NCBI RefSeq assembly: GCF_023734115.1
Contig: NZ_AP025737.1
Coordinates: 1,178,001 to 1,242,000, forward strand
Origin: Herbiconiux sp. L3-i23
GTDB lineage: Bacteria; Actinomycetota; Actinomycetes; Actinomycetales; Microbacteriaceae
DNA length: 64,000 nt
Direction of reading: 5' to 3'
How positions within the stretch are numbered: position 1 is the stretch's first letter; each line of letters opens with the position of its first letter. Shown piece after piece: positions 7,590 through 24,746 of the stretch. The notes below the pieces were generated by a model. That model had not been told where the DNA came from, did not search any database, and worked only from the letters and a program-made list of their open reading frames with translations. Made by a program: the position numbers and the translations under genes.

Positions 7590-7759
7590 GGCGACTCCTT
7601 TAGGTGCTCCGCTGGTGAAGGCTCTGGGTTGCGCTCGTCCGGTCGTCATCGACGCGGCCGGCGGTGAGAACGAATATGCTCGTCCTTCGTTACAGGCGGA
7701 TGTACGCCGCAGAAGATTCGGTGATGCGGAGAAATTCCGTTGAATCGGAGGGAACCCGC

Positions 7760-8257
7760 ATGGCAGACGGCGTCGAATCGCAGGATCTTCGACCGCGCGA
7801 CGGGCTCGACGAGGTCGATCGCGCCATCCTCGCGGCGCTCGCCGCAGACGGCCGCATGAGCAACGCCGCCCTCGCCGAGGCTGTCGGAGTCGCCGCGTCG
7901 ACCTCGCTCGCCCGAGTTCGGGCGCTGACCGCGCGGGGTGTCATCTCGGGATTCCGGGCCACGATCGACCCGCGGGCCGTCGGGCGCGACATGCAGGCCC
8001 TCATCAGTGTCGCGATCCGCGCCGGCGCCCGCGCCAATATCGCGCGGTTCGCCGAGGAGATCCGCACGATGCCGGAGGTGATCCAGGTGTTCTTCCTCGG
8101 CGGCGCCGAGGACTTCATCGTGCACGTCGCGGCGCGCGATAGCGACGGCATCCGCGATTTCGTGCTCGAGGCGCTCTCGGCCAATCCGCTGGTGGCGTCG
8201 ACGAGGACGAGCATGGTCTTCGACCACCACTTCATCGGGGTTCGTGTCGGCGACTGA
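7760..8257 (+). CDS. Lrp/AsnC family regulator (AldR-like)
   Basis: A 165-residue feast/famine regulator. The HTH is at residues 20-65 (LDEVDRAILAALAADGRMSN, then VAASTSLARVRALTARGVI) and the RAM effector domain follows (ALISVAIRAG to IQVFFLGGAEDFIVHVAA). Start ATG 7760 follows GGAGGGAA; an earlier ATG at 7664 would add a poor N-terminus. Placement opposite ald makes AldR-type control likely. The 170-bp gap 7590-7759 should hold its operators; I see no single clear palindrome there. Confidence 0.92.
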   Translation: MADGVESQDLRPRDGLDEVDRAILAALAADGRMSNAALAEAVGVAASTSLARVRALTARGVISGFRATIDPRAVGRDMQALISVAIRAGARANIARFAEEIRTMPEVIQVFFLGGAEDFIVHVAARDSDGIRDFVLEALSANPLVASTRTSMVFDHHFIGVRVGD

Positions 8258-8266
8258 GGTTTGCGT

Positions 8267-8282
8267 TCGAACACATGTTCGA
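8267..8282 (+). promoter_or_regulatory. LexA SOS box
   Basis: TCGAACACATGTTCGA fits the actinobacterial LexA operator TCGAAC-N4-GTTCGA at all twelve fixed positions. A -10 hexamer TATGAT follows at 8291-8296, so the box covers the -35 region of the HNH gene promoter. LexA binding would repress that gene until DNA damage. Confidence 0.88.
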
Positions 8283-8408
8283 ATGTGTGCTATGATGAAT
8301 GCACTTCGCAGTGCCGGCGAGGTGACCGGTCCGGGTTTCGGGTCGGCCTCATCTGTTGATGGGATCCGTCGGTGCGCCCGACGAGTCCCGAGACCGTCCG
8401 GGTAGGCG

Positions 8409-9866
8409 ATGAGTCAGGCACACGACGAGCAACCGCAGCAGGACAGCCCGCATTCATGCAGCGGTGTCGAGTTCGTCGATGCTTTGACCGCCGGGCGCAT
8501 CGTCGAGCGTGGACTCGCCGCCGAGCGCTATGCGCAGATCGACGGCTTGCGGCTCTGGTGGGAGACGAACCATGGCGCGAGCTGGAGCGCCTCCGATGAC
8601 CTCGCCTGGCGCGACCTGCGCGCCGAAGTCGCCGCTTCCTTGGCGGTGCATGAGCGCACCGCCGAGTCGCTGCTGGGTTACGCGCGCCGACTCGTGCACC
8701 AGCTGCCCTCGACGCTGTCCCGGCTGAGCTCCGCGACGATCTCCGACCGGCACGCCCGCATCGTCGTCGACCAGTCGCTCGGGGTGCCGGCGCACCTGGT
8801 CGGCGAGTACGAGCGGCGGGTCCTCGAGCAGGCGGAAACGCTGCCGCCGTCGCGCTTCGAGAGGTTCGCTGCCGGTGTGGCGGCGTCGATCGAGCCGTCG
8901 GTAATGGTCGAGCAGCACCGCGAAGCGATGACCTCGCGGCGCGTCTACGCCGAAGCCGCACCCCATGGAATGGCCTGGCTGCACCTGCTGCTCGACGCTC
9001 CCGACGCCCTCGGCGGCCTCGCCGCCATCACCGGACACGCGCGCACTCTGCATCGCGTGCCGGGGGAGACCCGCACCCTCTCGCAGATCGAGGCCGACGT
9101 CGCTCGAGACCTGCTCGTCGACTCCATCGGCGTGGCGGCCACGCCCTCCGGCGGCGCCCCGGTCCCGACGCCCGCGGCGCAGCGCGGCGTGAAGGCCGAG
9201 GTCTACGCTCACGTTCCCGTCCTCACCGCGATGGGTGAGAGCGACGAGCCGGGCACTCTCGGCGGCTACGGCCCTATCGATGCGCAGACCGCGCGCGAGC
9301 TCGCCGGCACCGCATCGTCGTGGATCCGGCTCCTCACCGACCCCGCCGATGGCGCCGTCCTCGACTTCGGTCGCGACACCTATCGCGTACCGGCCGAACT
9401 ACGCCGCTACCTCCAGGTCCGCGACGAGGTATGCCGATTCGTTGGCTGCACCAGGGCCGCGAAGTACTGCGACCTTGACCATACGGTTCCTTGGGTCGAA
9501 GACGGTGAAACGATCGCCGCGAACCTCGCGAACTTCTGCCGTGGGCATCACCTGGTGAAGAGTCGCGGTCGGTGGAAGATCGACAACCACGGCGACGGCG
9601 TCATCCGGTGCACCTCACCCACCGGCAAGGTCTACGAGACAAGACCCGCGGCGATACTGCCGCGGAAGAGCGGCGTGCGGTTCGTCGATGTGGACGACGA
9701 GCCCGATCCAGGCGGAACAGACCGAGCGCCGTCGACCATCCGAGAGGTGCTCCACCGGAAGTTCGGTCGCGACGATCCAGCCCCTCCGCCTCCCTCGGCG
9801 CTCACCGGCGATGTCGAACCAGAAGCCACCCCGCCCACACCAGCCGACGGTTCCGCGCCGTTCTGA
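8409..9866 (+). CDS. HNH endonuclease, DUF222 / 13E12 repeat family
   Basis: A 485-residue protein with the DUF222 region (about 20-330) and a C-terminal HNH nuclease domain at about 340-395: CRFVGC, CDLDHTVPW, then NLANFCRGHH, giving the CxxxxC...DH...C..HH metal site. This is the 13E12/REP13E12 family, found in many copies in actinobacteria; its role is unresolved. The leader of about 110 nt carries a LexA box, matching reports that mycobacterial 13E12 genes are DNA-damage inducible. The C-terminal 70 residues are Pro/Asp-rich and look disordered. Confidence 0.92.
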   Translation: MSQAHDEQPQQDSPHSCSGVEFVDALTAGRIVERGLAAERYAQIDGLRLWWETNHGASWSASDDLAWRDLRAEVAASLAVHERTAESLLGYARRLVHQLPSTLSRLSSATISDRHARIVVDQSLGVPAHLVGEYERRVLEQAETLPPSRFERFAAGVAASIEPSVMVEQHREAMTSRRVYAEAAPHGMAWLHLLLDAPDALGGLAAITGHARTLHRVPGETRTLSQIEADVARDLLVDSIGVAATPSGGAPVPTPAAQRGVKAEVYAHVPVLTAMGESDEPGTLGGYGPIDAQTARELAGTASSWIRLLTDPADGAVLDFGRDTYRVPAELRRYLQVRDEVCRFVGCTRAAKYCDLDHTVPWVEDGETIAANLANFCRGHHLVKSRGRWKIDNHGDGVIRCTSPTGKVYETRPAAILPRKSGVRFVDVDDEPDPGGTDRAPSTIREVLHRKFGRDDPAPPPPSALTGDVEPEATPPTPADGSAPF

Positions 9867-9887
9867 CCGACACCGAGGGACTCCGGC

Positions 9888-10541
9888 TCACCGCCCCCAG
9901 GCGGACGCGGGTGCCTGGACGACCGGGACCGGCGTCTGCGACCAATGGCTGCCGTTGCCGTAATGGCTCGTCGCCCACGGCGACGCCCAGATGGCCGCCT
10001 CGATCTGCGCGGTCGGCGCCGACGCGGCGAAGCCCGCTCGGATATCCGCGTAACCGGAGTGATTGAGGAGATTCTCGGCCGCCATCTCGGCGGCGGTGAC
10101 GAGCGTGTCGTAGCTGCCGAGACCCGAGCCGCCACCGGATCCGTATCCGTTGTTGAGCGGATTGTTCCGGTTCCACCAGTCGGGCGGCCCGTTCTCCTGC
10201 CGCATCCACCGGGTGAAGACCGCGACGTTCGAGTCGGTGACCGGCCAGCCCGCGTCGAGCAGCACGAGCTTCGCCCAGTCGTGGTTGGTGCCGCCCTGGA
10301 TATAGGTGTCACGCCCGGCGGTCGCGCCGTACGCATCGCGGGCGACATCCCCGAGCACCGCGTCGGCCGACACGGTGAGCCCCTGCTCGCCGATCACGGC
10401 CGGGTTCTCGGAGGCGGACGCGTCGGCGACGGGCGGGGGAGGCGCGATCGCGAACGTCGCAGCCAGGAGGAAGGCGCCGAGCATGGTCGCGGCGGCGAAG
10501 AGGCCGTGGCGTGCAGCGCGACCGCGCGTTGCTGTGCCCAT
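9888..10541 (-). CDS. Secreted protein with lysozyme-like C-terminal region
   Basis: A 217-residue exported protein. Residues 1-42 form a signal peptide (basic start, GLFAAATMLGAFLLAATFAI, then Ala/Pro/Ser). The mature part contains DWAKLVLLDAGWPVT, VFTRWMRQENGPPDWWNRNNPLNN and a helical region TAAEMAAENLLNHSGYADI. RQENG with the WWNRNNPLN block recalls phage-lysin and lysozyme-like domains, the Glu being a candidate catalytic residue, but I cannot name the family with certainty. It is convergent with the HNH gene, 21 bp apart. Confidence 0.75.
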   Translation of the reverse strand: MGTATRGRAARHGLFAAATMLGAFLLAATFAIAPPPPVADASASENPAVIGEQGLTVSADAVLGDVARDAYGATAGRDTYIQGGTNHDWAKLVLLDAGWPVTDSNVAVFTRWMRQENGPPDWWNRNNPLNNGYGSGGGSGLGSYDTLVTAAEMAAENLLNHSGYADIRAGFAASAPTAQIEAAIWASPWATSHYGNGSHWSQTPVPVVQAPASAWGR

Positions 10542-10682
10542 CTCACCTCCCGCAGTCGAACGAACACAGCACTGTAAGCCCGTCGGCTGGGAATGGCGAG
10601 CGGATCAGGTCCTCTTCTCCTGGGCGTGCGCCGCCCCACCGGGTGCGCATGCCGCCGGGACGCATGGGATAAGACTTGAGTC

Positions 10683-11960
10683 ATGCCAGCAGCTCGGAAG
10701 GACAAGCCGCCACGGCCGCCACGGCCACCGCGTGCGTGGCGCCGCGTCGCTGCCGGCGCACTCGCGCTACTGTCTCGGCTCGAGCCGGTCACCGCGCTGG
10801 TGACTCTCGCGACGATCGCCGCGATCAGCCTGGTCGCCACGTCGACCCCGATCGCCGCGACCGTCTACCAGGTGCCGCTCGTCGTCGCTTTCGCCCTGTG
10901 CCTGCTGCACGCCGCGTCGCTTCCCGTCGCGGTCGTGCGGCCGACGATCGCCGTTCCACTGTCGCTCGGAACCGCGCTCGGGTTGCAGAGCTTCGGAACC
11001 GTTCCGGAGGCCGCAGCCTGGCCCTGGTGGGTGGTGCTCATCGTCGGGCAGTCGCTGGTGCTGCTGATCGTCGCGCTCCGCAGCTCGTGGCGCCTCGCGA
11101 CAGGTGCCTGGTTCCTCTCGGTCGCCGCGCCCGCGGTCCTCGCCATGGTGCGCCATCCCGAGCGTCTCGATCCGAGCTCCATCAACCTCGTCGTGTTCGC
11201 CTCCATCGGCGGCACCTCGGTGCTCATCGGAGTGGTCCTCGCGCAGTGGAACGAGATCCGAGCGCAACTGCTGCGGGAGCGCTCGCTCACCGTCGAGGAG
11301 TACTCGAGGCGTCGCCTCGTCGAGGACCGCGCACGGATCGCGCGGGAGCTGCACGACGTCATCGCCCACGGCCTGTCGATCATCAATGTCCAGTCGACGA
11401 CCGCCAAATACCGGAATCCAGGGCTCGACCCCGCGGTGGAACGCGAGTTCGACGAGATCGCCGCCTCCTCCCGGCAGGCGCTCGGCGAGATGCGGGCCCT
11501 ACTCGGGGTGCTGCGCGACTCGGGGCCGAGCGAACAGGCACCGCAACCGGGCCTCGGCGACGTCCCGGACCTCGTCGTGCAGGCCGAGCGTGCCGGTGCG
11601 CAGGTGCGACTCGACTGGTTCGAGGGCGACGCCGTCGAGGACGTGACCGAGCTGGTCGGACTCGCCGCGTACCGGATAGTGCAGGAAGCTCTCAGCAATG
11701 CGATCCGCCATGCGTCAGGGGTACCCGTGCGGGTGCGCGGGCGGCGGGACGACAGCCTGATCAGGGTGGTCGTCGAGAACGACGGCGGCACGACACGCGA
11801 CCCGGCGACCGCCGGCAGCGGCTTCGGCCTCGTCGGTATGCGGGAGCGCGCCGAGAGCGTCGCCGGGACGGTCACAATGGAGGACACACCGGGCGGTGGG
11901 TACGTGGTCGAAGCCGTGCTCCCCGTGCGCGGTGCCGACCAGGAGAGCGAACGACCATGA
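10683..11960 (+). CDS. Sensor histidine kinase, DesK/NarL type
   Basis: A 425-residue membrane sensor kinase. After a basic Pro/Arg-rich start there are about five to six transmembrane segments between residues 22 and 188 with almost no extracellular loop, typical of sensors that read the membrane itself. The HisKA_3 dimerisation helix has ARELHDVIAHGLS with phospho-acceptor His224. The ATPase domain (VQEALSNAIRHA, then GFGLVGMRERAESV) is complete. Its TGA overlaps the ATG of the response regulator. A desaturase lies downstream, so a DesK-like membrane-fluidity role is a reasonable inference. Confidence 0.93.
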   Translation: MPAARKDKPPRPPRPPRAWRRVAAGALALLSRLEPVTALVTLATIAAISLVATSTPIAATVYQVPLVVAFALCLLHAASLPVAVVRPTIAVPLSLGTALGLQSFGTVPEAAAWPWWVVLIVGQSLVLLIVALRSSWRLATGAWFLSVAAPAVLAMVRHPERLDPSSINLVVFASIGGTSVLIGVVLAQWNEIRAQLLRERSLTVEEYSRRRLVEDRARIARELHDVIAHGLSIINVQSTTAKYRNPGLDPAVEREFDEIAASSRQALGEMRALLGVLRDSGPSEQAPQPGLGDVPDLVVQAERAGAQVRLDWFEGDAVEDVTELVGLAAYRIVQEALSNAIRHASGVPVRVRGRRDDSLIRVVVENDGGTTRDPATAGSGFGLVGMRERAESVAGTVTMEDTPGGGYVVEAVLPVRGADQESERP

Positions 11961-12652
11961 CCACCAGCGCAGGCGCCGCCCGCGCCGCGATCACGGTTCT
12001 GATCGCCGACGACCAGGCGATGGTCCGAGCAGGATTCTCGGCACTGCTCGCCGCGCAGCCCGACATCGACGTGCTCGGCGAGGCCCGCGACGGTGCCGAA
12101 GCCGTCGCGATGGTCGACGCGCTCCGCCCCGACGTCGTGCTCATGGATGTCCGCATGCCGCTCCTCAACGGTATCGAGGCGACGCGGCTCATCACCGCTG
12201 CAGGGGAGTCGGCGCCGCGGGTCCTCATGCTGACCACGTTCGATATCGATGACTATGTCTACGACGCGCTCCGGGCGGGAGCGAGCGGATTCCTGCTAAA
12301 GGACGCGCTGCCCGAGGAGCTCGTCGGCGCAGTCCGTGTCGTGGCACGCGGCGACGCCCTGCTCGACCCAGGGGTCACCCGGCGGGTCATCGAGAGCTTC
12401 GCCACGGCGCCGGGACGCCCGCGCGAGGCGCCGGCGGCGCTCGCCCAGCTCACCGGACGCGAGCGCGAGGTGCTGACCGAGGTGGCGAAGGGGCTGTCGA
12501 ACGGCGAGATCGCCGAGAGCCTATTCATCGCGGAGCAGACGGTGAAGACCCACGTCAGTCGTGTATTCGGCAAGCTCGGCATCCGCGACCGCGCCCAGGC
12601 GGTGATCGTCGCCTACGAGTCCGGACTCGTGGTCGCCGGCAGCCCCTCATGA
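11957..12652 (+). CDS. NarL/LuxR-family response regulator (DesR-like)
   Basis: A 231-residue DNA-binding response regulator. The receiver domain has the acidic pair in VLIADDQAMVRAG, phospho-acceptor Asp64 in VVLMDVRMP, and the switch Lys in FLLKDALP. The C-terminal LuxR HTH reads LTGREREVLTEVAKGLSNGE and ends KTHVSRVFGKLGIRDRAQAV. It is translationally coupled to the kinase through an ATGA overlap and probably activates the desaturase gene 92 bp downstream. Confidence 0.95.
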   Translation: MTTSAGAARAAITVLIADDQAMVRAGFSALLAAQPDIDVLGEARDGAEAVAMVDALRPDVVLMDVRMPLLNGIEATRLITAAGESAPRVLMLTTFDIDDYVYDALRAGASGFLLKDALPEELVGAVRVVARGDALLDPGVTRRVIESFATAPGRPREAPAALAQLTGREREVLTEVAKGLSNGEIAESLFIAEQTVKTHVSRVFGKLGIRDRAQAVIVAYESGLVVAGSPS

Positions 12653-14053: not shown

Positions 14054-15865
14054 ATGCCGTACGTGCTGGGAATCGACGTCGGCGACGAGACGTCCGCGTC
14101 GGTCATCGAATACTTCGACGGGAGCGAGGGCGCTCCCCATCGCGCGGACCTCACCGACGACGGAGTCGGCGTGCTTCCCGTTCCGCGCATCGACTCCGAG
14201 GGCGCCCTCGTTCTCACCGCCGCTGAACCTGCGGATCCCCCCACCCTGTCCCTCGCCGGGTTCCTCGCCCGCGTCGGCGATGCCGTCCCGATCGTCGCCG
14301 GCGGATTCCTGGTACGGCCCGAAGACATCGTCGCCGCCCTCGTCCGGATCTGCGTCGACCGGGTGACCGCCGAACGCGCCGAGGCGCCTGCGGCGATCGC
14401 GGTGACCCGTCCGGCGGTATGGGGCGCCTACCGCGCGTCGCTCGTACGCTCGGCGCTCGACGCAGTGGACCTTCCGGACGCCCTGCTCATCGACAGTGCG
14501 CGGGCCAGTGCCGTCGCCGCCGACCGCTCGGGTGCCACCACGGCGCCGTCCGTCGTGGTCGTCGATCTCGGCGTCTCCGCCCTCGAGGTGTCGCTGTTCG
14601 CATCACCGAGCCGCTCCGGGGACGCAGCCGAGTCGAGCGTCGGTGGCGCGATCCGCCGCGTCGAACACCGCGACCGGGGCGTCGCGGCCTTCGACCGTGC
14701 ACTGGTCGCACACGTCGTCGAGGGAGTCGGCCTCCTCGACCCCCTCGACCCCGACCTCCGGGCGCCGCTCGAGGAGCTGCGACGCCGCTGCGCCATCGCG
14801 CGCGCCCAGCTCGACGTCGACGGCGAGAGCACCGTCGAACTCGTCGTCGGAGGCCACCGCGAGCGAGTGCGCATCGTGCGGGCCGAGTTCGAAGAGCTCA
14901 TCGAGTCAGAGGTGGCGGAGATCTGCGAGATCGTCGCGCCCTTCCTCGACGACGCCCCCGACACGGTGCCGGTGCTCCTCGCCGGCAGCGGCGCCGGGAT
15001 CCCGCTCATCGCCGAGATGCTTTCCGCACGCTTCGACAGGACGATCATCGTCGCCGACGACCCCCTCGGTTACGCATCGAGCGGTGCCGCTCTCGCAGCG
15101 ACCGAGCGGCAGTCTCCGACGGGCGCCCCGTCGACCGGCGATCGGGTGCACGACCTGCTGCCGGTGCGCACCGTACGCACCGCCCGACTCGACGCGGTAC
15201 TCGGCGCGATCGCCTCCGACGCCTCCGACACGGTGCGGACCCGGCGCCTCCGAGTGGTGCGGATCGGCTCGAGCGTCGCCGCGGCGGTCGCCGTCACCGC
15301 AGGAGCCGCCGTCGTACTCGCCCTGGCCGCGACGCCGGGGGAGCGTGCCGACGGGATCTCGGACGCGTCGCCGCTCAGCGATCGGCAGCTGGAGACCCTC
15401 GTCGCCGCCGCGAACGACGGCACCGCCCCCCTCGCTGACCTGCTCGCCCCGCCGGAGGGCGACGAGGCGGCACCGCCGACCGCGGCCGAGCCGACCCCCG
15501 GAGCGCGGCTCACCCCGGGAACGAAATCGACCCCGGCGCCGAGCCCGAAGTCCTCGTCGAAGAGTTCGGACGCCTCCACCGACGGGTCGAGGCCCGCCGC
15601 GCCGCCGCCGACGACGACGGACCAGACGCCCGCACCGCAGCCGACCACCGAACCCTCGTCCGACCCGCCGCCGGATCCGGTGCCGTCGGACACACCGCCC
15701 ACCGAACCACCACCATCCGAGCCGGATCCCACCCCCACGAACGAACCGGCCCCCGATCCGAGCCCCGCCCCCGCCCCCGAACCCGCACCCGAAGAACCGC
15801 CGGCCACCGACCCTGCTCCTCCCGAACAGGTCGCCGCCTCCGGAGCCGCTCCGGGTAGCGCCTGA
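14054..15865 (+). CDS. Hsp70-like actin-fold protein with membrane anchor and Pro-rich tail
   Basis: A 603-residue protein. Residues 1-370 are a DnaK-like ATPase fold: VLGIDVGDETSAS (phosphate 1), VVVVDLGVSALEVSLF (phosphate 2) and VLLAGSGAGIPLIAEML (adenosine loop). It lacks the DnaK peptide-binding domain. Instead there is one transmembrane helix (about 405-430) and a tail of about 150 residues rich in Pro, Thr, Ser and Asp. The ATPase is likely cytoplasmic and the tail outside. Start ATG 14054 follows TAGGAG; a longer frame from 13997 has no such site. It heads the ini-type cluster, 12 bp before the LuxR gene. Confidence 0.85.
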   Translation: MPYVLGIDVGDETSASVIEYFDGSEGAPHRADLTDDGVGVLPVPRIDSEGALVLTAAEPADPPTLSLAGFLARVGDAVPIVAGGFLVRPEDIVAALVRICVDRVTAERAEAPAAIAVTRPAVWGAYRASLVRSALDAVDLPDALLIDSARASAVAADRSGATTAPSVVVVDLGVSALEVSLFASPSRSGDAAESSVGGAIRRVEHRDRGVAAFDRALVAHVVEGVGLLDPLDPDLRAPLEELRRRCAIARAQLDVDGESTVELVVGGHRERVRIVRAEFEELIESEVAEICEIVAPFLDDAPDTVPVLLAGSGAGIPLIAEMLSARFDRTIIVADDPLGYASSGAALAATERQSPTGAPSTGDRVHDLLPVRTVRTARLDAVLGAIASDASDTVRTRRLRVVRIGSSVAAAVAVTAGAAVVLALAATPGERADGISDASPLSDRQLETLVAAANDGTAPLADLLAPPEGDEAAPPTAAEPTPGARLTPGTKSTPAPSPKSSSKSSDASTDGSRPAAPPPTTTDQTPAPQPTTEPSSDPPPDPVPSDTPPTEPPPSEPDPTPTNEPAPDPSPAPAPEPAPEEPPATDPAPPEQVAASGAAPGSA

Positions 15866-15877
15866 AGGTCTCCGCCG

Positions 15878-18607
15878 ATGGATGCGACCTCGCCGAGGGC
15901 GCAGTACCACAGTCGTCCCCTCGCCCGCGCCGCGAGGGAGTTCCTCGATCAGATCTCCGCAGTCCCGGGCGCTCGCATCGTCGTCGCAATCACCGGCGCC
16001 CGTGGCTCGGGCAAGAGCGCGTTGCTCGACGCGGTGCGCGACGAGCTGTCCGCCCATCGCACGTCGGCGAGCGCTCCGCAGGGCGACGCCCCGGCCGCGG
16101 AGGACGAGGTCGTCCTCGTCGACGACGCGCACCTGCTCGCCGAGTCGCGCATCCGAGCCCTCCGCGATCTCGTCGACGGGGGCACCGCGAGCGTCATCGT
16201 CGCCTACCCCCCGTTCCGCCGCTCGCCGGCCCTGCACGAGCTGTCCGTGGCTCTCGAACGCCACCGGCCCCCGATCGCCCTCGGTCCCCTCGACCGCAAC
16301 GAGATCGCGGCGGTGCTGGGCGTGCACGGCGCCGCCCCGTCGATCGGACTCGTGGAGGCGGTCGAGTACCAGACCGCCGGGATGCCGTGGCTCGTCACCC
16401 GGCTCGCCCGGCAGCTCGGCACCCACCCGGCCGTCTCCGATCTGAGCAGGGCCGCCGCCGCGGTCGTCGAGAGGCTCACCGTCGAGCTCGGCGCGCTCGA
16501 CCCCACCCTCCGAGACCTGCTCGTCGCGCTTGCGGTGGGGTTCGACTCGGCCGGCTGGATACCGCCGGGGGAGGAGGATCGGCGCCGCCTCGACGCGCAC
16601 ATCGCCGACGCCCGCGACGCCGGCCTGCTCGACCCCCACGGCACGGTCGTGCCCATCGTGCGCCGGGCCATCCTGCAGAGCACGCCCGCCTACCGCATTC
16701 GGGCCTTGCACGGGGCCCTCGTCGACGCGATCACCCGCACGGGAGACCTCGATCCCGACGTGGCACGAGAGCTCGCGAAGAGCCGGCTGCACGACGCCCG
16801 CGTCGAAGCGGTGCTCGTCGCCGCCGCCGACGCGGCGCTCGACCGCGACCCGGCCGTCGCCGCGGGGTATTACGACGCCGCCGTGCAGGCGGGCAGCGAC
16901 CCGATCGCCCTCGCCGCACGCCGCGCACGTGCCGCCCTCTGCGCGGGCGACGTGGCGCTCGCCTCCCGCTACGTCGACGAGCACCTCGCGCAGGCGGATG
17001 CCGACGCGGCGGCGGTCGCCGACGTCTCCGCCGCCCTGTGGGCCCACCGTGGTTTGCTCGAGCGCGCCGCGGCGAGCTACCGGTTCATCGGCGGGTCTTC
17101 GGATGCCCTTTCGAGCGCTCTCGCCGCCGTCACCATGCTGGCGGTGGGCGACGTGGACGGCGCAGAGCGCCTCTTCGCCGCGCTCCCGACCGTGGCGCCT
17201 CCGACTCTCGCCGGAGCGTCGATCGCGCTGATGGCGCGAGGGGTGCGGGAGTCGCTCGCGGGACAGGGGCCCGCCGCGCTCGGGTCGCTGGTGCGTGCCG
17301 CCGACGCGATGAGCGGCTCGAGGACCTTGATGCCGATGCCCGAGTCGCCCGCCGCGCTCTGCGCGATCACGGCCCTGCACCTCGGCGACCTCGACACGGC
17401 GGCGGCGGTGCTCGACACGGCGCTCGACACCCGGCACTGCGGAGCCGCCATGACGGCGCGGCACAGCCTGCTCCGCGCCTGGGTCTGGATGCAGAACGAC
17501 CGCCCCGACCTCGCGTCCCGCCTGGCCGAGGACGTCGCCGCCCGTGGTCCGCTGCTCGGACGCGACCAGTTCACGCTCGCCGCCCTGCGGGTGGCGGTCG
17601 CCCGTCGTGCGGACGATCTGCCCGGCCTCGTCGCCTCGTGGCGGCAGGCCCGCAACGTCCTGCTGCACGTGCCGGTCGACCTGTTCGGCCTGCTCCCGCT
17701 CGGCGAACTGATGATCGCCGCGGCACGCCTGCACGATCGCGCCCGAGCGCAGGCCGCGGCGGCGGAAGGGTGGCAGCTGCTCGAACGGCTCGGCTCGCCG
17801 CCCCTCTGGAGCGCCGCGATGCACTGGGCGGAGGTGCAGGCCGCGATCCTCGCCGAACGCCCCGCCGACCTCGCCCATCACGGCGGCGCCCTCACCGCCA
17901 TGGCCGATGCCAACCCGCTCGCCGCGGCGTGCGCGACGGCGGCGCGCACCTGGGCCGACGTCCTCACCGAGTCGATCGACACCCGGGCGGTCATCATCGC
18001 CGCCAAGGGACTCGCCGCGGTCGGGCGGACCTGGGACGGCTCCCGGCTCGCCGGTCACGCCGCCGCGCACGTCGACGACCGCAAGGAGATGGCGCGCCTG
18101 CTGGCCTGCGCCCGCGACATGCATCCGGGCAGCGGGCTCGCCCACCCCATCACCGAGCCCGTGCCCGCGGTCGGGGTCGACTCGGGCAGAGCCGCCGACG
18201 ACGTGCAGCTGAGCGCACGGGAGCGGGAGGTCGCCGCCCTCTTCGTCGAAGGCAGGAGCTACCGCGAGATCGGCGAGGCCATGTTCATCTCGCCGCGCAC
18301 CGTCGAACACCACATGGCCCGCATCCGCGGCCGCATCGAAGCCTCCACCCGGTCGGAGCTCGTCGCCCGACTGCGTCGCCTGCTGGGCGAACGCGGCCCT
18401 GACGGGAGTGGCGTCGGGCGCGGACTCGGTGGATCCGCCGTCGACGGCGACGGTCGCGGCCCGCATCGAGCCGGCCCCCACGGAGCAGCCCCGAACGGAT
18501 CCGGCATGGACGAGCGGAGCGCGGGCGGTGACGGGGTGCGTCTGCTCGGCGGTCCGGCGCGCGACGGTTCGGTTCCGCAGGGCGGGTCACAGGGGGTTCG
18601 GCGATGA
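15878..18607 (+). CDS. STAND/AAA ATPase LuxR-family regulator
   Basis: A 909-residue MalT-like regulator. It has an N-terminal P-loop ATPase (Walker A GARGSGKS near residue 40; Walker B EVVLVDDAHLL), a long helical repeat region (about 300-770) of TPR-like character for signal binding, and a C-terminal LuxR HTH (LSAREREVAALFVEGRSYRE, then FISPRTVEHHMARIRGRI, about 777-840). A Gly/Asp-rich tail of about 65 residues follows. Such proteins oligomerise on ligand plus ATP and bind direct repeats. It sits between the Hsp70-like gene and the IniB-like gene and is probably the activator of the ini genes. Confidence 0.9.
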   Translation: MDATSPRAQYHSRPLARAAREFLDQISAVPGARIVVAITGARGSGKSALLDAVRDELSAHRTSASAPQGDAPAAEDEVVLVDDAHLLAESRIRALRDLVDGGTASVIVAYPPFRRSPALHELSVALERHRPPIALGPLDRNEIAAVLGVHGAAPSIGLVEAVEYQTAGMPWLVTRLARQLGTHPAVSDLSRAAAAVVERLTVELGALDPTLRDLLVALAVGFDSAGWIPPGEEDRRRLDAHIADARDAGLLDPHGTVVPIVRRAILQSTPAYRIRALHGALVDAITRTGDLDPDVARELAKSRLHDARVEAVLVAAADAALDRDPAVAAGYYDAAVQAGSDPIALAARRARAALCAGDVALASRYVDEHLAQADADAAAVADVSAALWAHRGLLERAAASYRFIGGSSDALSSALAAVTMLAVGDVDGAERLFAALPTVAPPTLAGASIALMARGVRESLAGQGPAALGSLVRAADAMSGSRTLMPMPESPAALCAITALHLGDLDTAAAVLDTALDTRHCGAAMTARHSLLRAWVWMQNDRPDLASRLAEDVAARGPLLGRDQFTLAALRVAVARRADDLPGLVASWRQARNVLLHVPVDLFGLLPLGELMIAAARLHDRARAQAAAAEGWQLLERLGSPPLWSAAMHWAEVQAAILAERPADLAHHGGALTAMADANPLAAACATAARTWADVLTESIDTRAVIIAAKGLAAVGRTWDGSRLAGHAAAHVDDRKEMARLLACARDMHPGSGLAHPITEPVPAVGVDSGRAADDVQLSAREREVAALFVEGRSYREIGEAMFISPRTVEHHMARIRGRIEASTRSELVARLRRLLGERGPDGSGVGRGLGGSAVDGDGRGPHRAGPHGAAPNGSGMDERSAGGDGVRLLGGPARDGSVPQGGSQGVRR

Positions 18608-18634
18608 GATCCGCCCGACGACCGGGGGCCGGCG

Positions 18635-18676
18635 TAGGGGGACCGCCCCACCCCGTGCGGGCCCGATAGGGGGACC
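18635..18676 (+). promoter_or_regulatory. Direct-repeat operator candidate upstream of the IniB-like gene
   Basis: TAGGGGGACC occurs twice, at 18635-18644 and 18667-18676, 32 bp apart, about three helical turns. Both sit 110-150 bp before the IniB start. Asymmetric G-rich direct repeats on one face of the helix are what MalT-type activators bind; assignment to the LuxR protein is inference. Confidence 0.5.
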
Positions 18677-18784
18677 ACCGCCGATGTGCGTCCCGCCGGC
18701 GGCGACGAGGCTCGACAGCACCCGATCGCGTTGGACCCGCCACCCGATCACAACGAACACCCGAACCCGAAGGAAATGCCCATC

Positions 18785-19675
18785 ATGACCATCGCAACGA
18801 CCCTGCTCGACTTCCTCCTCAGCCTCTTCCGCGACCCCGAGGCCGCCGAGGAATTCGCCGCCGACCCCGAGGCGGCGCTCGCGAGCGCAGGTCTGTCGGA
18901 CGTGTGCGGCGACGACGTCGACGCCATCATGCCCGTCCTGCTCGACTACGGCCCCGTCGCCGTCGGCAACCGTTCCTACGAGACCGGCGGCAACCCCCAG
19001 GCCGTCGGTGGCAACCACTGGGACCCGGACGACGACCACGGACACGCGGTGCAGCAGCTCACCCACCTGGTGAACAACTATTCGTACACCTCGCTCGACG
19101 ACCGCGACACGGTGCTCGACCAGTCGGTCAACCAGAACATCTGGGCCAACGGCGACGTCACCCAGCTGTTCGACCAGGAGGCGAACATCGCATCCGGCGA
19201 CCGCGCCGTCGTCGCCACCGACGACGCCCGCGTCGACAACTCGGACGACCACTCGGTCGACATCGACGACTCGTTCAACGACGAGTCGGATCACTCGATC
19301 AACGACTCGTACAACGACAACTCCGACAACTCGGTCGACGTCTCCGACTCGTTCAACGACAACTCCGACAACTCGGACAACTCCGACAACTCGGTGAACG
19401 ACTCGTACAACGACAACTCGGACAACTCGACCGAGGACAACGACCTCATCGTCAAGGACAACGAGGTCAACGTCGGCAACGAGGACAACTCGGAGGACAA
19501 CGACGTCATCGTCAAGGACAACGAGCTCGACTTCTCCGAGGACAACGACGTGATCGTCAAGGACAACGAGCTGAACGTCGGCAACGAGGACAACGACGAC
19601 TTCACCTACGTCGACGAGCCCATCGTCGTCGTGCTCGACGAGCCCGTCCTCGAGGAGCCCGCACCGGTCATGTGA
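18785..19675 (+). CDS. iniB: IniB-like protein with D/N/S-rich repetitive tail
   Basis: A 296-residue protein. Residues 1-50 (TTLLDFLLSLFRDPEAAEEF, then DPEAALASAGLSDV) match the IniB N-terminal domain as I remember it (LIDYILSLF..., SAGL). A Gly/Asn middle follows. From about residue 150 the sequence is almost only Asp, Asn, Ser, Glu and Val, in repeats of DNSDNS, NDSYND and EDNDVIVKDNE. No signal peptide or membrane helix is visible. Start is ATG 18785, 9 nt after AGGAA; ATG 18776 overlaps that site. The tail is very acidic and probably disordered. Mycobacterial IniB is Gly-rich instead, so only the head is conserved. Confidence 0.82.
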   Translation: MTIATTLLDFLLSLFRDPEAAEEFAADPEAALASAGLSDVCGDDVDAIMPVLLDYGPVAVGNRSYETGGNPQAVGGNHWDPDDDHGHAVQQLTHLVNNYSYTSLDDRDTVLDQSVNQNIWANGDVTQLFDQEANIASGDRAVVATDDARVDNSDDHSVDIDDSFNDESDHSINDSYNDNSDNSVDVSDSFNDNSDNSDNSDNSVNDSYNDNSDNSTEDNDLIVKDNEVNVGNEDNSEDNDVIVKDNELDFSEDNDVIVKDNELNVGNEDNDDFTYVDEPIVVVLDEPVLEEPAPVM

Positions 19676-19678
19676 TCC

Positions 19679-19742
19679 TGAGGCGTCGCGCCTCACCCCG
19701 AGAGAACCCGACCCCGTCGCGCTCCGCGCCGACGGGGTCGGG
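19679..19742 (+). terminator. Two hairpins between IniB-like and IniA-like genes
   Basis: TGAGGCG-TCG-CGCCTCA (19679-19695) is a perfect 7-bp stem. It is followed by CCCGACCCCGTCG (19707-19719) and CGACGGGGTCGGG (19730-19742), a perfect 13-bp stem with a 10-nt loop. They begin 3 nt after the IniB stop. They probably end most transcripts or protect the iniB mRNA, giving more IniB than IniA/IniC. Confidence 0.75.
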
Positions 19743-19795
19743 CCCACGTCTTCAGCACGTCGGACCCACCCCACCCGATCCCCGAGGAGCACCCC

Positions 19796-21751
19796 TTGCC
19801 CGACCCCACGACCCTCATCGACGAAGCGATCCGACTCACCGACGCCGAAGGCCGCCCCGACCTGCGACGCCGACTCGAACAGGCGAAGGAGCGCTCGAAG
19901 GCCCGAAGCATCCGGGTGATGGTCGTCGGTGAATCCGGACAGGGCAAGAGCCAGCTGATCAACGCGCTCGTCGGCGCACCGGTCTGCCCGGTCGACGACG
20001 ACGTCGCGACCGCGGTGACCACGGTCGTCAGCTACGGGGAGACTCCCTCCGCGGTTCTCGTCCGGCAGTCGGGCGACGTCTCGGCGAGCGCGGAGCCGCC
20101 GCTCGAGCGCCGGCCCATCGGCCTCGACGAGCTCGCCCAGCACGTCTCGGCACGCGCGAATCCCGGCAACCGCAGCGGTCTCGTCGCCGCCGAGGTGGCG
20201 ATTCCGCGGGCCATCCTCGCGGGCGGACTCTCCCTCGTCGACTCGCCCGGAGTCGGCGGGCTCGAGTCGGCTCACTCGCTCGCGACCATGACCGCGTTGC
20301 CGACGGCCGACGCCGTCATCCTCGTCTCCGACGCGTCGCAGGAGTTCACCGAACCCGAGATGCAGTTCCTGCGACAGGCGCTGCGCGTGTGCCCCAACGT
20401 CGCCTGCGTGCTGTCGAAGACCGACATCTACCCGAGCTGGCGCACCATCGCCGACCTCGACCGACGGCACCTCGCCGAGCTCGGGCGCGACATCCCCGTC
20501 TTCGCCGTGTCGTCGCAGCTCCGCCTCGACGCCGCCCGCGACGCGGACCCCGTGCTGAACACCGAATCCGGCTTCCCCGCCCTCGTCGGCTACCTGCGCG
20601 GCGAGGTGCTCGGCCAGGTCGAGCGGCTGCACCGGCGCTCGCTCGAGCACGACCTGCGCGCCGTCGCCGACCACCTGACCCTCGCGCTGCAGAGCGAACT
20701 CAGCGCCCTCGTCGACCCGGCCGCCACCCCCGCCGTCGTCGCCGAGCTCGCGAACGCGAAGGAGCGCGCCGACGATCTCCGCAAGCGGTCGGCGCAGTGG
20801 CAGGTGACCCTGTCCGACGGCATCGCCGACCTCATGTCCGACATCGAACACGACCTCCGCGACCGGATGCGGGCGATCCAGCGCGAGGCCGACGCCGCGA
20901 TCGACGCCGGCGACCCCGGCCCCCTGTGGGAGTCGCTCGTCGATTGGCTCGAGACCCGCATCACGACCGCGGTCTCCGAGACCTTCATCTGGTCCGACGA
21001 GCGCGCCCGCTGGCTGGCCGGGCAGGTGGCGGAGCATTTCGGCGAGGAGGAGGTGCGTCTGCCGGCGGTGCACGTCGGCTCGGGCGACGGGGCGCTCGAC
21101 GCCGTCGAACTGGTGCCCGAATTGGACCGTGGACGGGTGAGCAGTCTCCAGAAGGTGCTCATCGGCATGCGCGGCTCGTACGGCGGCATCCTGATGATCG
21201 GTCTCGTCACCGGCATCGTGGGACTCAGTCTCATCAACCCGTTCTCCATCGCCGCCGGTCTGCTGATCGGCGGCAAGGCGTACCGCGACGACAAGGACGC
21301 TCGACTGAAGAAGCGGCAGTCGGAGGCGAAGATGCTCGTGCACAAGCAGATCGACGAGGTGCTCTTCCAGGTCGGCAAGGAGCTGAAGGACCGGCTCCGA
21401 CTCGTGCAACGCACCACCCGCGACCACTTCAGCGAGATCGCGGGGGAGCTGCACCGTTCCCTGGGCGACTCGCTTCTCGCCTCGCAGAAGGCGGCCTCGC
21501 TGTTCAACGCCGAACGCGAGCAGCGGACCGGGGAGATCCGCAAGCAGCTCGCCCGCATCGGCGCCCTGACGAAGGCGGTGACCGACGGGTCGCCGCCCGC
21601 CCGAGCGGCGTCCACCAGAACAGCGCCCACCAGAACAGCGTCCACCCGAACAGCACCGCCTCGCACAGCGCCCACCGGAACAGCGCCGCCCCGCACATCG
21701 CCGACACCGGCCGCGCCGACGGTGCCGCAGAGCGCGATGAGCGCCTCGTGA
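19796..21751 (+). CDS. iniA: IniA-like dynamin-family GTPase
   Basis: A 651-residue dynamin-like GTPase. G1 is GESGQGKS (45-52), G3 DSPG (near 150) and G4 SKTD (near 206). A membrane-inserting hydrophobic hairpin (GILMIGLVTGIVGLSLINPF) lies at about 462-492, flanked by long coiled helices. Mycobacterial IniA is a bacterial dynamin-like protein shown to remodel membranes. The start is TTG 19796 with AGGAG 6 nt upstream. The last 40 residues are a Thr/Arg/Pro repeat (TRTAPTRTASTRTAPP) absent from the core family. It overlaps the iniC start by GTGA. Confidence 0.9.
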   Translation: MPDPTTLIDEAIRLTDAEGRPDLRRRLEQAKERSKARSIRVMVVGESGQGKSQLINALVGAPVCPVDDDVATAVTTVVSYGETPSAVLVRQSGDVSASAEPPLERRPIGLDELAQHVSARANPGNRSGLVAAEVAIPRAILAGGLSLVDSPGVGGLESAHSLATMTALPTADAVILVSDASQEFTEPEMQFLRQALRVCPNVACVLSKTDIYPSWRTIADLDRRHLAELGRDIPVFAVSSQLRLDAARDADPVLNTESGFPALVGYLRGEVLGQVERLHRRSLEHDLRAVADHLTLALQSELSALVDPAATPAVVAELANAKERADDLRKRSAQWQVTLSDGIADLMSDIEHDLRDRMRAIQREADAAIDAGDPGPLWESLVDWLETRITTAVSETFIWSDERARWLAGQVAEHFGEEEVRLPAVHVGSGDGALDAVELVPELDRGRVSSLQKVLIGMRGSYGGILMIGLVTGIVGLSLINPFSIAAGLLIGGKAYRDDKDARLKKRQSEAKMLVHKQIDEVLFQVGKELKDRLRLVQRTTRDHFSEIAGELHRSLGDSLLASQKAASLFNAEREQRTGEIRKQLARIGALTKAVTDGSPPARAASTRTAPTRTASTRTAPPRTAPTGTAPPRTSPTPAAPTVPQSAMSAS

Positions 21752-23334
21752 CCGTCGCGTCCGACACCGTCGTCGCCCTGCTGAGGGAGGTACGACAGTG
21801 CTACGGCGACGAGGAGGAGGCGGCGCGCGCCGTCGACGCCCTCATCGAACGGCATCGGTCCCCGTTGCGGGTCGCACTCACGGGCATGGTGAAGGCGGGC
21901 AAGTCGACCCTCCTCAACGCGATCGTCGGTGAGGAGATCGCGCCCACCGACGCGGCCGAATGCACACGCCTCATCACTTGGTACGTCTACGGCGCGACGA
22001 GGCGCATCTTCGTGCACCTGCGCGACGGCTCTGTGCACCGCCTCGCGGTGGTGCGCACCCGCGGGCGGCTCGACATCCGGCTCGGCGGTTTCGACGCCGA
22101 CAGCATCGAGCGGATCGTCGTCGAGTGGCCCGCCACCGCGCTGCGCGGCATGACTCTCATCGACACTCCCGGCTTCGCCTCGCTCTCACCGGACGTCGTC
22201 GCCCGTTCGCGGCGCTTCCTGCTGCCTGAATCGGGGCCCTCCGAGGCCGACGCGGTGCTCTACCTGCTGCGCCACCTGCACGGCGTCGACCTCGACCTGC
22301 TCACCGCGTTCCGACGGGGAGCCGACGAACCCCGGTCGGCGGTCAGCGCGATCGCCGTGCTCTCCCGCGCCGACGAGATCGGCGCCGGGCGGCTCGACGC
22401 GCTGCTCTCCGCGCGCAACGTGGCCCAGCGTTACCGCGAGGAGGGCAGCCTGCAGGAACTGACCCTCGGCATCCTGCCCGTCGCAGGCCTGCTCGCGCAG
22501 AGCGCGACGACGCTCCGCCAGGCGGAGTTCCAGGCCCTGCAGAGCCTCGCGGACATGGATCGCCGCGCCCGTGACAGGGTCCTCCGCTCGGCGGACCTGT
22601 TCGTCTCGAGCGACGAGGTCCCGGTGCCCGCACCGACGCGGGCCCTTCTGCTCGACCGGCTCGGCATGTTCGGAATCAAGCTCGCGCTCGTGCTGCTGCG
22701 CAACGGCACCCCCGACGCCACCGCGTTGTCGGCCGAACTCACGAGGCGCAGCGGACTCGACGAGCTCGTCCGGTGGATCGACGAGCTGTTCGCGGACCGC
22801 GCCGAGACGCTCAAGATCAGGGCCATCACGAGCGGGGTCCGCGCGGTGCTCGAGGCCCGCCCCGTCGCCGACCGCGAAGCGATCGACGCCCTCCTCGAGC
22901 AACTCGACGTCGCCGTCCACGAGAGCACCGAGCTGCACCTCATCTCGGTGGCGAGAACCGTCGGCTTCACCTTTCCGCGCCGCCTCGCTGCCGAGGCGGA
23001 GCGGATCCTCGGCGGCCACGGCACCGACGAGCGCCGACGTCTCGCGCTCACCGACGACGCCGACGACGCCGAGATCCTCGCGGCGGCGGTCGACGCTCAC
23101 CGCCGCTGGCGTGCCGTGCAGACCCACCCGATGACCTCACCCGACGAGACGCAGGTCGCCGCCGCTGTCGCGCGCAGCTGCGAGGCGATCATCCTCGCCC
23201 ACAGTTCCGCTCACCGGGTGTGGCGGGGCGCCGCGGTGACCCCGCGCAGCCAGTCGCCGCTCGCCGGCGTCGCGCCGACCACGGCTCCCGCCGCCGCGAG
23301 CACCAGCCCGGCGATGAGCAGCGCGCGCAGATAG
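21748..23334 (+). CDS. iniC: IniC-like dynamin-family GTPase
   Basis: A 528-residue partner GTPase of IniA. G1 is GMVKAGKS (46-53), G3 DTPG (near 140), and G4 is a diverged SRAD (AVLSRADEIGAG). It has no obvious membrane hairpin, so it may work through IniA, as paired bacterial dynamins do. The GTG start overlaps the IniA stop (GTGA). The last 41 codons (23211-23334) run antisense into the neighbouring membrane-protein gene; that Ala/Ser/Pro tail may be a late extension by stop-codon loss. Confidence 0.87.
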   Translation: MTVASDTVVALLREVRQCYGDEEEAARAVDALIERHRSPLRVALTGMVKAGKSTLLNAIVGEEIAPTDAAECTRLITWYVYGATRRIFVHLRDGSVHRLAVVRTRGRLDIRLGGFDADSIERIVVEWPATALRGMTLIDTPGFASLSPDVVARSRRFLLPESGPSEADAVLYLLRHLHGVDLDLLTAFRRGADEPRSAVSAIAVLSRADEIGAGRLDALLSARNVAQRYREEGSLQELTLGILPVAGLLAQSATTLRQAEFQALQSLADMDRRARDRVLRSADLFVSSDEVPVPAPTRALLLDRLGMFGIKLALVLLRNGTPDATALSAELTRRSGLDELVRWIDELFADRAETLKIRAITSGVRAVLEARPVADREAIDALLEQLDVAVHESTELHLISVARTVGFTFPRRLAAEAERILGGHGTDERRRLALTDDADDAEILAAAVDAHRRWRAVQTHPMTSPDETQVAAAVARSCEAIILAHSSAHRVWRGAAVTPRSQSPLAGVAPTTAPAAASTSPAMSSARR

Positions 23335-23786
23335 AGGCCGTACGGCCCCAGGGCGATGAAAGCGTCGGCGAGCACCCACACGCCGGCCTGCAGCAGCAGC
23401 GAGACGAACAGCAGCGGGCGGAACACCCCGTGCTTGCGAAGCAGGCCGCGCAGCATCAGCGCCTGCACCAGTGCGACCACCCCGATCGCGATGAGCCCCG
23501 CGGTGAGCACGATCATCGCGACCGAATCGAGTGTCTCCTCGGCCCTGTCCGGCGCGAGCTCGGCGAGGAACGCCGCGAGCTCGCTGTAGATGCGGTCGCG
23601 CGCGAGGAAGGCGACGGTGATGGCCGTGCCCGCGGCGACGAAGCTCGCGATCCACAGCCCGCGCAGAGCCCGGATCACCGTCGTGGGCCGCAGCGGAGCG
23701 AGATCGGGTGGCGCCACCCACCCGCCGGTCGCCGGACGCGGAGGACGCGGTGGCGAGTCGGGGGAGCGCCCACCGTCGTCGGTCAT
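23211..23786 (-). CDS. Small four-helix membrane protein
   Basis: A 191-residue integral membrane protein with a Pro-rich cytoplasmic start and four hydrophobic segments (ALRGLWIASFVAAGTAITVA; MIVLTAGLIAIGVVALVQAL; PLLFVSLLLQAGVWVLADAF; LLIAGLVLAAAGAVVGATP). I recognise no family. TAGAGT lies 5 nt before the ATG, so it may be leaderless. Its 3' end overlaps the end of iniC on the opposite strand by 124 bp. Confidence 0.8.
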   Translation of the reverse strand: MTDDGGRSPDSPPRPPRPATGGWVAPPDLAPLRPTTVIRALRGLWIASFVAAGTAITVAFLARDRIYSELAAFLAELAPDRAEETLDSVAMIVLTAGLIAIGVVALVQALMLRGLLRKHGVFRPLLFVSLLLQAGVWVLADAFIALGPYGLYLRALLIAGLVLAAAGAVVGATPASGDWLRGVTAAPRHTR

Positions 23787-23857
23787 ACGGCACTCTAACC
23801 CCGGCCACGCACGGGGCGACGAGTCCTCCGGGCGCACGTCCAGCCGCGCGCGCCGGG

Positions 23858-24529: not shown

Positions 24530-24585
24530 GCGAAACCCCTCGCTCCACCATGCCCGACCGCGTGTCCCATACCCCTCGCGCCCGA

Positions 24586-24715
24586 ACCCGACAGGACCGA
24601 ACCCGACAGGACCGAACCCGACAGGACCGAACCCGACAGGACCGAACCCGACAGGACCGAACCCGACAGGACCGGACCCGACAGGACCGAACCCGACAGG
24701 ACCGAACCCGACAGG
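24586..24715. repeat. 15-bp tandem repeat, nine copies
   Basis: Unit ACCCGACAGGACCGA repeats about nine times with one substitution (GGACCG in one unit) and no indels. It lies between two minus-strand genes. Because 15 is a multiple of three, all frames stay open and produce spurious pentapeptide ORFs. It is a likely variable-number locus. Confidence 0.93.
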
Positions 24716-24746
24716 ACAGTATGCCCCGACTGGAGGGCATGCCCGT

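Follow-up and report, generated by a model that had tools for sequence, protein, structure and literature searches.

An Hsp70-fold protein with a predicted membrane anchor is co-inherited with the iniBAC regulator IniR across actinobacteria

How the activator IniR senses envelope damage is a question that lies within the biology of the tuberculosis-drug responses, and it is raised again by a locus of Herbiconiux sp. L3-i23. The locus lies in a stretch of 64,000 nucleotides that was analysed as a whole (contig NZ_AP025737.1, positions 1,178,001 to 1,242,000; hereafter the window) in a genome of 3.18 Mb. Its five genes, all on the + strand, encode in order an Hsp70-like protein that we call Hsp70L (14054..15865), an IniR homologue (15878..18607), an IniB-like protein (18785..19675; the mechanically called open reading frame, or ORF, starts further upstream) and the dynamin-like GTPases IniA (19796..21751) and IniC (21748..23334, from its start codon). 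An earlier note on this DNA had described five same-direction genes with an iniBAC core, and coordinates and family matches bear out all five. The gene described there as STAND-LuxR encodes a homologue of IniR; the cluster is of the iniR-iniBAC type, a divergent form of the one in mycobacteria, where it is induced by drugs that act on the cell wall. The iniA and iniC genes overlap by 4 bp (GTGA), and the gap of 177 bp before iniB contains a conserved operator, so that the cluster is probably not a single five-gene run but two transcription units, with Hsp70L-IniR as sensor and regulator and iniB-iniA-iniC as an operon that can be induced. The comparative data presented here yield one concrete sensor candidate and one concrete operator; Hsp70L, membrane-anchored and encoded beside iniR in most lineages, may be the missing stress sensor.

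The regulator itself is the more familiar partner. The window protein matches the NCBIfam IniR model NF038181 with 460 bits over model positions 1-825 of 827, which is below the equivalog cut-off of 750 bits and makes it a homologue, not a certified equivalog. It has a P-loop (GARGSGKS), a MalT-like middle and a C-terminal LuxR/GerE helix-turn-helix (HTH; 48 bits in Pfam), matching the ATPase, MalT-like and LuxR-HTH plan that IniR shares with MalT (PMC5760070). In mycobacteria IniR is a direct activator of iniBAC, as shown by over-expression and by chromatin immunoprecipitation (ChIP), which in M. tuberculosis places it upstream of iniBAC (PMC5760070). The MalT-type "dedicated activator" that had been put forward as a new link is therefore a homologue of an activator already known. 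A dnaK-like gene next to iniR was reported once, in M. smegmatis (PMC5760070), and our literature search found no later work on it. What is new is thus the scope of the Hsp70L-iniR association and the logic of the system; compared with the earlier note, the finding is less novel for the regulator and more general for its Hsp70-like partner.

How general is the association? We sampled 395 genomes evenly across the class and found IniR in 38 (threshold E <= 1e-40); strong IniA profile matches occurred in exactly those 38 (in G431 in two pieces). Reading the sequence around each of them located Hsp70L within the cluster in all 38; in 28 it immediately precedes iniR and shares its strand. As controls, we took 40 genomes without IniR, 29 of them from the same order: Hsp70L was present in none of these 29, whose best matches were DnaK-level and did not exceed 209 bits; the best copies in the IniR-positive genomes score 195-647 bits. 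The Fisher p for the association is about 1e-19 with kinship ignored and, since the sampled genomes are related, should not be read as a true probability. Kinship is best controlled for in one genus of the family (g3), where Hsp70L is present in five IniR-positive genomes and absent from all six IniR-negative ones sampled. Seven IniR-positive genomes, including the window's, have DnaK and Hsp70L as their sole two Hsp70-type genes (E <= 1e-12). A sample of the phylum added one more, weaker IniR-like genome outside the class.

A second set, of 80 named loci, was selected through IniR and is biased toward Arthrobacter relatives. Here Hsp70L immediately precedes iniR in 78 of the 79 testable loci (76 by ORF call; L161 is outside the testable set). 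The 78 include L147, in which the end of Hsp70L is visible at the contig edge, and in L185 Hsp70L is on the opposite side of the cluster. In L133 (Arthrobacter sp. Br18, 7733-12076) Hsp70L and IniR share one open frame, which may be a genuine gene fusion or may stem from faulty assembly. Writing Hsp70L, IniR, IniB, IniA and IniC as H, R, B, A and C, the gene orders include H+R+B+A+C+ (37 loci), the divergent type C-A-B-H+R+ (17) and H+R+B+C-A- (9); Hsp70L keeps its place directly upstream of iniR where iniAC or iniBAC is inverted. The loci come from Microbacterium, Agromyces, Arthrobacter and relatives, Georgenia, Micromonospora and relatives, Pseudonocardiales, Rhodococcus and Nocardia, besides the mycobacteria. 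The module is thus not peculiar to the window genome. The refuting condition set in the earlier note, that the Hsp70-like and LuxR genes do not co-occur with iniBAC elsewhere, is clearly contradicted: the genes are inherited together as a module beyond the mycobacteria as well, with Hsp70L, IniR and IniA present in all 38 genomes of the class sample. Some of these records deserve separate mention. The locus L141, labelled 'Planococcus sp. APC 4015', carries an actinobacterial ini cluster of Microbacterium layout and is probably a contamination or a misnamed record. In several mycobacterial-type genomes (G322, G194, G387 and others) the distance between the true dnaK and the ini cluster is about 15-20 kb, and in Nocardia farcinica (L003 12634-14481) a DnaK-type gene directly follows iniC.

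What kind of protein, then, is Hsp70L? The window protein matches Pfam HSP70 at 25.8 bits (cut-off 20.6), and its residues 1 to about 355 make up an Hsp70-type nucleotide-binding domain, which is confidently modelled by AlphaFold (most of the core has a predicted local distance difference test score, pLDDT, of 87-98). Its closest solved folds are the nucleotide-binding domains of DnaK/Hsp70 (Foldseek match to that of DnaK, E 5.5e-18), with alignments of about the length of that domain. A substrate-binding domain is absent, the Pfam match stopping at model position 372 of 599; the remainder is, by model and topology, a transmembrane helix and a low-confidence, proline-rich tail (177 residues, 27% proline). 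The helix is predicted at residues 408-426 (15275..15331, + strand; hydropathy 2.39) behind an Arg-rich stretch, with five Lys/Arg in the 15 residues before it versus one after. The same design recurs in the IniR-adjacent set: a transmembrane helix is found in 94 of the 101 complete proteins with a usable tail, and every one of these 94 has more Arg/Lys before the helix than after it (mean 3.4 versus 0.3), so that the Hsp70 domain is predicted to be cytosolic (N-in) and the tail outside. The tails of this set have medians of 205 residues and 21% proline.

The active site of the window protein has degenerated. The columns of DnaK T11, K70, E171 and T199 are occupied by D, E, S and A, so that the Hsp70 catalytic residues are not kept, and with T12, G197 and G198 also altered (DnaK numbering) the protein is a candidate pseudo-ATPase. 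Among 146 Hsp70L copies, the Lys70 column contains Glu in 90 and Lys in 2, and the GGGT core of the phosphate-2 motif is canonical in 82; it is degenerate in the mycobacterial-type copies, in Nocardia and in the window. The description "chaperone-like" in the earlier note consequently stands for the fold alone, the substrate-binding domain and key catalytic residues being absent. A tree places nearly all the cluster copies in one radiation separate from DnaK, the extra mycobacterial-type copies being lineage duplications. As a separate observation, most IniRs of the Arthrobacter group (L119-L140 and similar) are missing the N-terminal 200 residues, P-loop included, and may be NTPase-free. IniRs without this region are nearly always paired with a canonical Hsp70L; a reciprocal loss of ATPase between the two proteins is not claimed, since genus g133 breaks the rule and most of the cases are from a single family.

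The second concrete element is the operator. A de novo expectation-maximisation (EM) motif search upstream of iniB returned taGGGGG-N5-CCCCGATGCC, with the core GGGGG-N5-CCCCGATG at about -116 from the start of the IniB domain (interquartile -122 to -109). It is found in 119 of 130 non-redundant iniB upstream regions, an optimistic figure because the model was trained on these same regions; unaffected by this are the controls, in which it occurs upstream of just 2 of 123 Hsp70L genes and 2 of 105 iniA genes. In the window the main copy, TAGGGGGACCACCGCCGATGTG, is the predicted IniR site for iniB (18667..18688, + strand, 18.5 bits), and a half-copy, TAGGGGGACC, lies 32 bp before it (18635..18644, + strand), in keeping with the CCCC boxes that recur every 33 bp across the aligned loci. 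As a word within the window alone, TAGGGGGACC has two copies, which is not beyond chance; its weight comes from the cross-locus motif. A conserved -10 follows about 18 bp downstream of the boxes, matched in position in the window by the weak -10-like hexamer GAGGCT (18707..18712, + strand), and in 110 loci an A at +41 and a T at +45 from the motif start are conserved. To judge from the published M. tuberculosis ChIP signal upstream of iniBAC, it is presumably IniR that binds here, and IniA/IniC pairs lacking IniR have no adjoining operator apart from one stray hit. An operator before every iniA was considered and is not seen, because iniA usually follows iniB. In several Microbacterium loci with a separate AC unit, the operator is also found upstream of that unit, where it precedes the intervening IniB-like ORFs. 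Autoregulation of Hsp70L-iniR through an iniB-type operator was likewise not seen.

As for the genes that this operator would control, the window IniB-like protein has the IniB N-terminal domain (NF038175, IniB_NTERM; 74.5 bits, cut-off 40), a second conserved motif, DRDTxxDQSVNQNIWAxGDVxQ, and Asp/Asn/Ser-rich repeats. In the form DRDTIxDQSVNQNIWAxGDVxQ this second motif occurs in 69 of 142 ORFs with the IniB N-domain and in 20 other ORFs. An ordered repeat fold for IniB was rejected, its model being disordered beyond the N-terminal domain and confident mainly for residues 1-50. Between iniB and iniA there is a strong hairpin (19707..19742, + strand; spacer z = -3.2 by dinucleotide shuffles), and 67 of 90 homologous spacers fold with z < -2 (mononucleotide shuffles); the hairpin is possibly an attenuator or a processing site, and the folding of the spacer suggests uneven expression of IniB and IniA. 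The two dynamins match Pfam Dynamin_N at 73 and 41 bits. IniA scores 453 bits against the solved M. smegmatis IniA (6j72), in an alignment of about 580 residues, and has a hydrophobic stretch at residues 462-480 that qualifies as a dynamin membrane element; IniC is 40% identical to that of Nocardia farcinica over 491 residues. M. smegmatis IniA mediates membrane fission (PMC6715688). Two side observations concern iniA elsewhere. In the Microbacterium-type loci with a separate AC unit (L103 2026-3901, L141, L149, L167, L181), one or two Asn/Asp/Ser-repeat proteins that lack the IniB N-domain come before iniA, and in the mycobacterial-type L090 (G431) iniA lies in two overlapping frames and looks broken.

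How might these parts work together? We hold, with slightly better than even confidence, that the cluster is an IniR-controlled envelope-stress module in which Hsp70L-IniR senses and B-A-C responds. Hsp70L would be a membrane-anchored, cytosolic Hsp70 nucleotide-binding domain, probably weakly or non-hydrolysing, with its proline-rich tail outside; with wall stress as the presumed input, it would hold or license the STAND/MalT-type IniR according to the state of the wall or membrane. Once released or licensed, IniR would oligomerise and bind the tandem GGGGG-N5-CCCCGATG boxes that closely precede the iniB -10, transcription of iniB-iniA-iniC would follow, the B-A hairpin probably leading to an excess of IniB, and the two dynamins, by analogy with the fission activity of M. 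smegmatis IniA, may remodel or seal the membrane. In a bolder form, which we regard as a tentative possibility only, Hsp70L would be a transmembrane receptor with an Hsp70 fold and would gate a STAND transcription factor directly, making it a new class of bacterial envelope sensor: the tail would read wall stress outside and the nucleotide-binding domain would pass the signal to IniR, Hsp70L being ancestral to the ini system and displaced from the side of iniR in some mycobacteria.

Several facts weigh against a sensing role for Hsp70L. The contact between Hsp70L and IniR is itself one that we infer. In 10 of the 38 genomes of the class sample the cluster Hsp70L is not clearly directly upstream of iniR, and in G073 (L036), the sole clear exception, iniR is an orphan, the 20 kb read containing neither Hsp70L nor iniA nor iniC. 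Several Micromonosporaceae-type Hsp70Ls are without a clear transmembrane helix. Over-expressed IniR induces by itself in M. smegmatis, a host with its own dnaK-like gene (PMC5760070). Finally, IniA/IniC pairs lacking IniR also often have an Hsp70-like neighbour, so that the older link of Hsp70L may be to the dynamins.

This last point leads to the main rival, that Hsp70L serves the dynamins, as an anchor or an assembly/disassembly factor for IniA/IniC, and stands beside iniR merely through joint inheritance. An Hsp70-like gene adjoins, or lies within about 13 kb of, IniA/IniC pairs without IniR (L188, L189, L190-L195, L201, L004); in families f31 and f16 Hsp70L is found by iniB or iniC, not iniR; and mycobacterial-type genomes carry a further copy, placed next to iniC or downstream of iniR. 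However, Hsp70L stays with iniR in at least 26 named loci that have iniAC or iniBAC on the opposite strand, and the rarity of the iniB-type operator upstream of Hsp70L makes co-induction with the dynamins unlikely. We consider this rival a serious, if rather unlikely, alternative to the sensing module; gating IniR and serving the dynamins could also both be true. Still more doubtful is a structural or mechanical role, in which the proline-rich tail would cross the wall and tether the membrane to it, the Hsp70 domain being only a cytosolic plug. It accords with the single N-in helix and long Pro/Thr/Ser-rich tail of most Hsp70Ls, and with the degenerate catalytic residues of the window and mycobacterial-type copies, but the many canonical GGGT cores imply that nucleotide binding still matters, and the close pairing with iniR is left unexplained.

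That the cluster is an anti-phage or conflict system, whether a LeoABC-like one built on dynamins or one of the GTPase-Hsp70 kind, is very improbable. IniA does match PADLOC LeoBC (67 bits) and LeoA (47 bits), and conflict systems with a GTPase and an Hsp70 have been described in actinobacteria (PMC7159879), but that paper mentions neither dynamin nor IniA, and the window protein is far closer to the solved mycobacterial IniA. The LeoABC-type PADLOC set is incomplete in the window, with just weak dynamin and domain-level matches, none for Hsp70L or IniB, and no effector; regulator and operator fit a stress regulon instead. That Hsp70L is an ordinary chaperone gene there by chance is hardly credible: Hsp70 genes are common in actinobacteria and the true dnaK is sometimes nearby, but Hsp70L lacks a substrate-binding domain, is the only Hsp70-type gene besides DnaK in the window genome and six relatives, and co-occurs with the cluster so strictly as to exclude chance.

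Around the cluster, an ORF of 223 residues on the - strand (23137-23808), without a Pfam family, shares nearly 200 bp with the 3' end of iniC. Further on, nine copies of a 15-bp tandem repeat, CCGAACCCGACAGGA (98% identical, 24582-24717), lie in the gap that separates an endonuclease/exonuclease-family gene from an AI-2E-type transporter gene.

The closest known system is the mycobacterial iniR-iniB*-iniBAC locus (M. tuberculosis, M. marinum, M. smegmatis), which has IniR, the IniB N-domain and the IniA, IniC order in common with the window; mycobacterial-type loci also have an operator of the same design, upstream of both iniB and iniB*. The window differs in its iniR, which is co-directional with iniBAC and encodes a protein below the equivalog cut-off, in having no separate iniB*, and in the Asp/Asn/Ser repeats of its IniB, where the mycobacterial protein is described with a glycine-rich body. 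Microbacteriaceae, the family of the window's host, are known to be without mycolates, which means that the trehalose/mycolate signal of the literature should not be taken for granted in the window cluster; the system is moreover widespread in actinobacteria known to have no mycolic acids, which suggests an ancestral signal that was not specific to mycolates. The E. coli activator MalT has tandem boxes next to its -10, a layout that the G-rich boxes of the window resemble. MalT is a gated, oligomerising activator, and IniR is probably alike, but the window has no maltose genes and the proposed gate is an Hsp70-type membrane protein rather than MalK, MalY or Aes. With DnaK/Hsp70 the common feature is the fold of the nucleotide-binding domain, whereas in Hsp70L the substrate-binding domain is replaced by a transmembrane helix and a proline-rich tail, and Lys70 is almost never retained. 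Finally, as in other bacterial dynamin pairs (IniA, CjDLP1/2, LeoABC), two dynamin-like GTPases are adjacent in the window, but here the pair is linked to IniR and Hsp70L.

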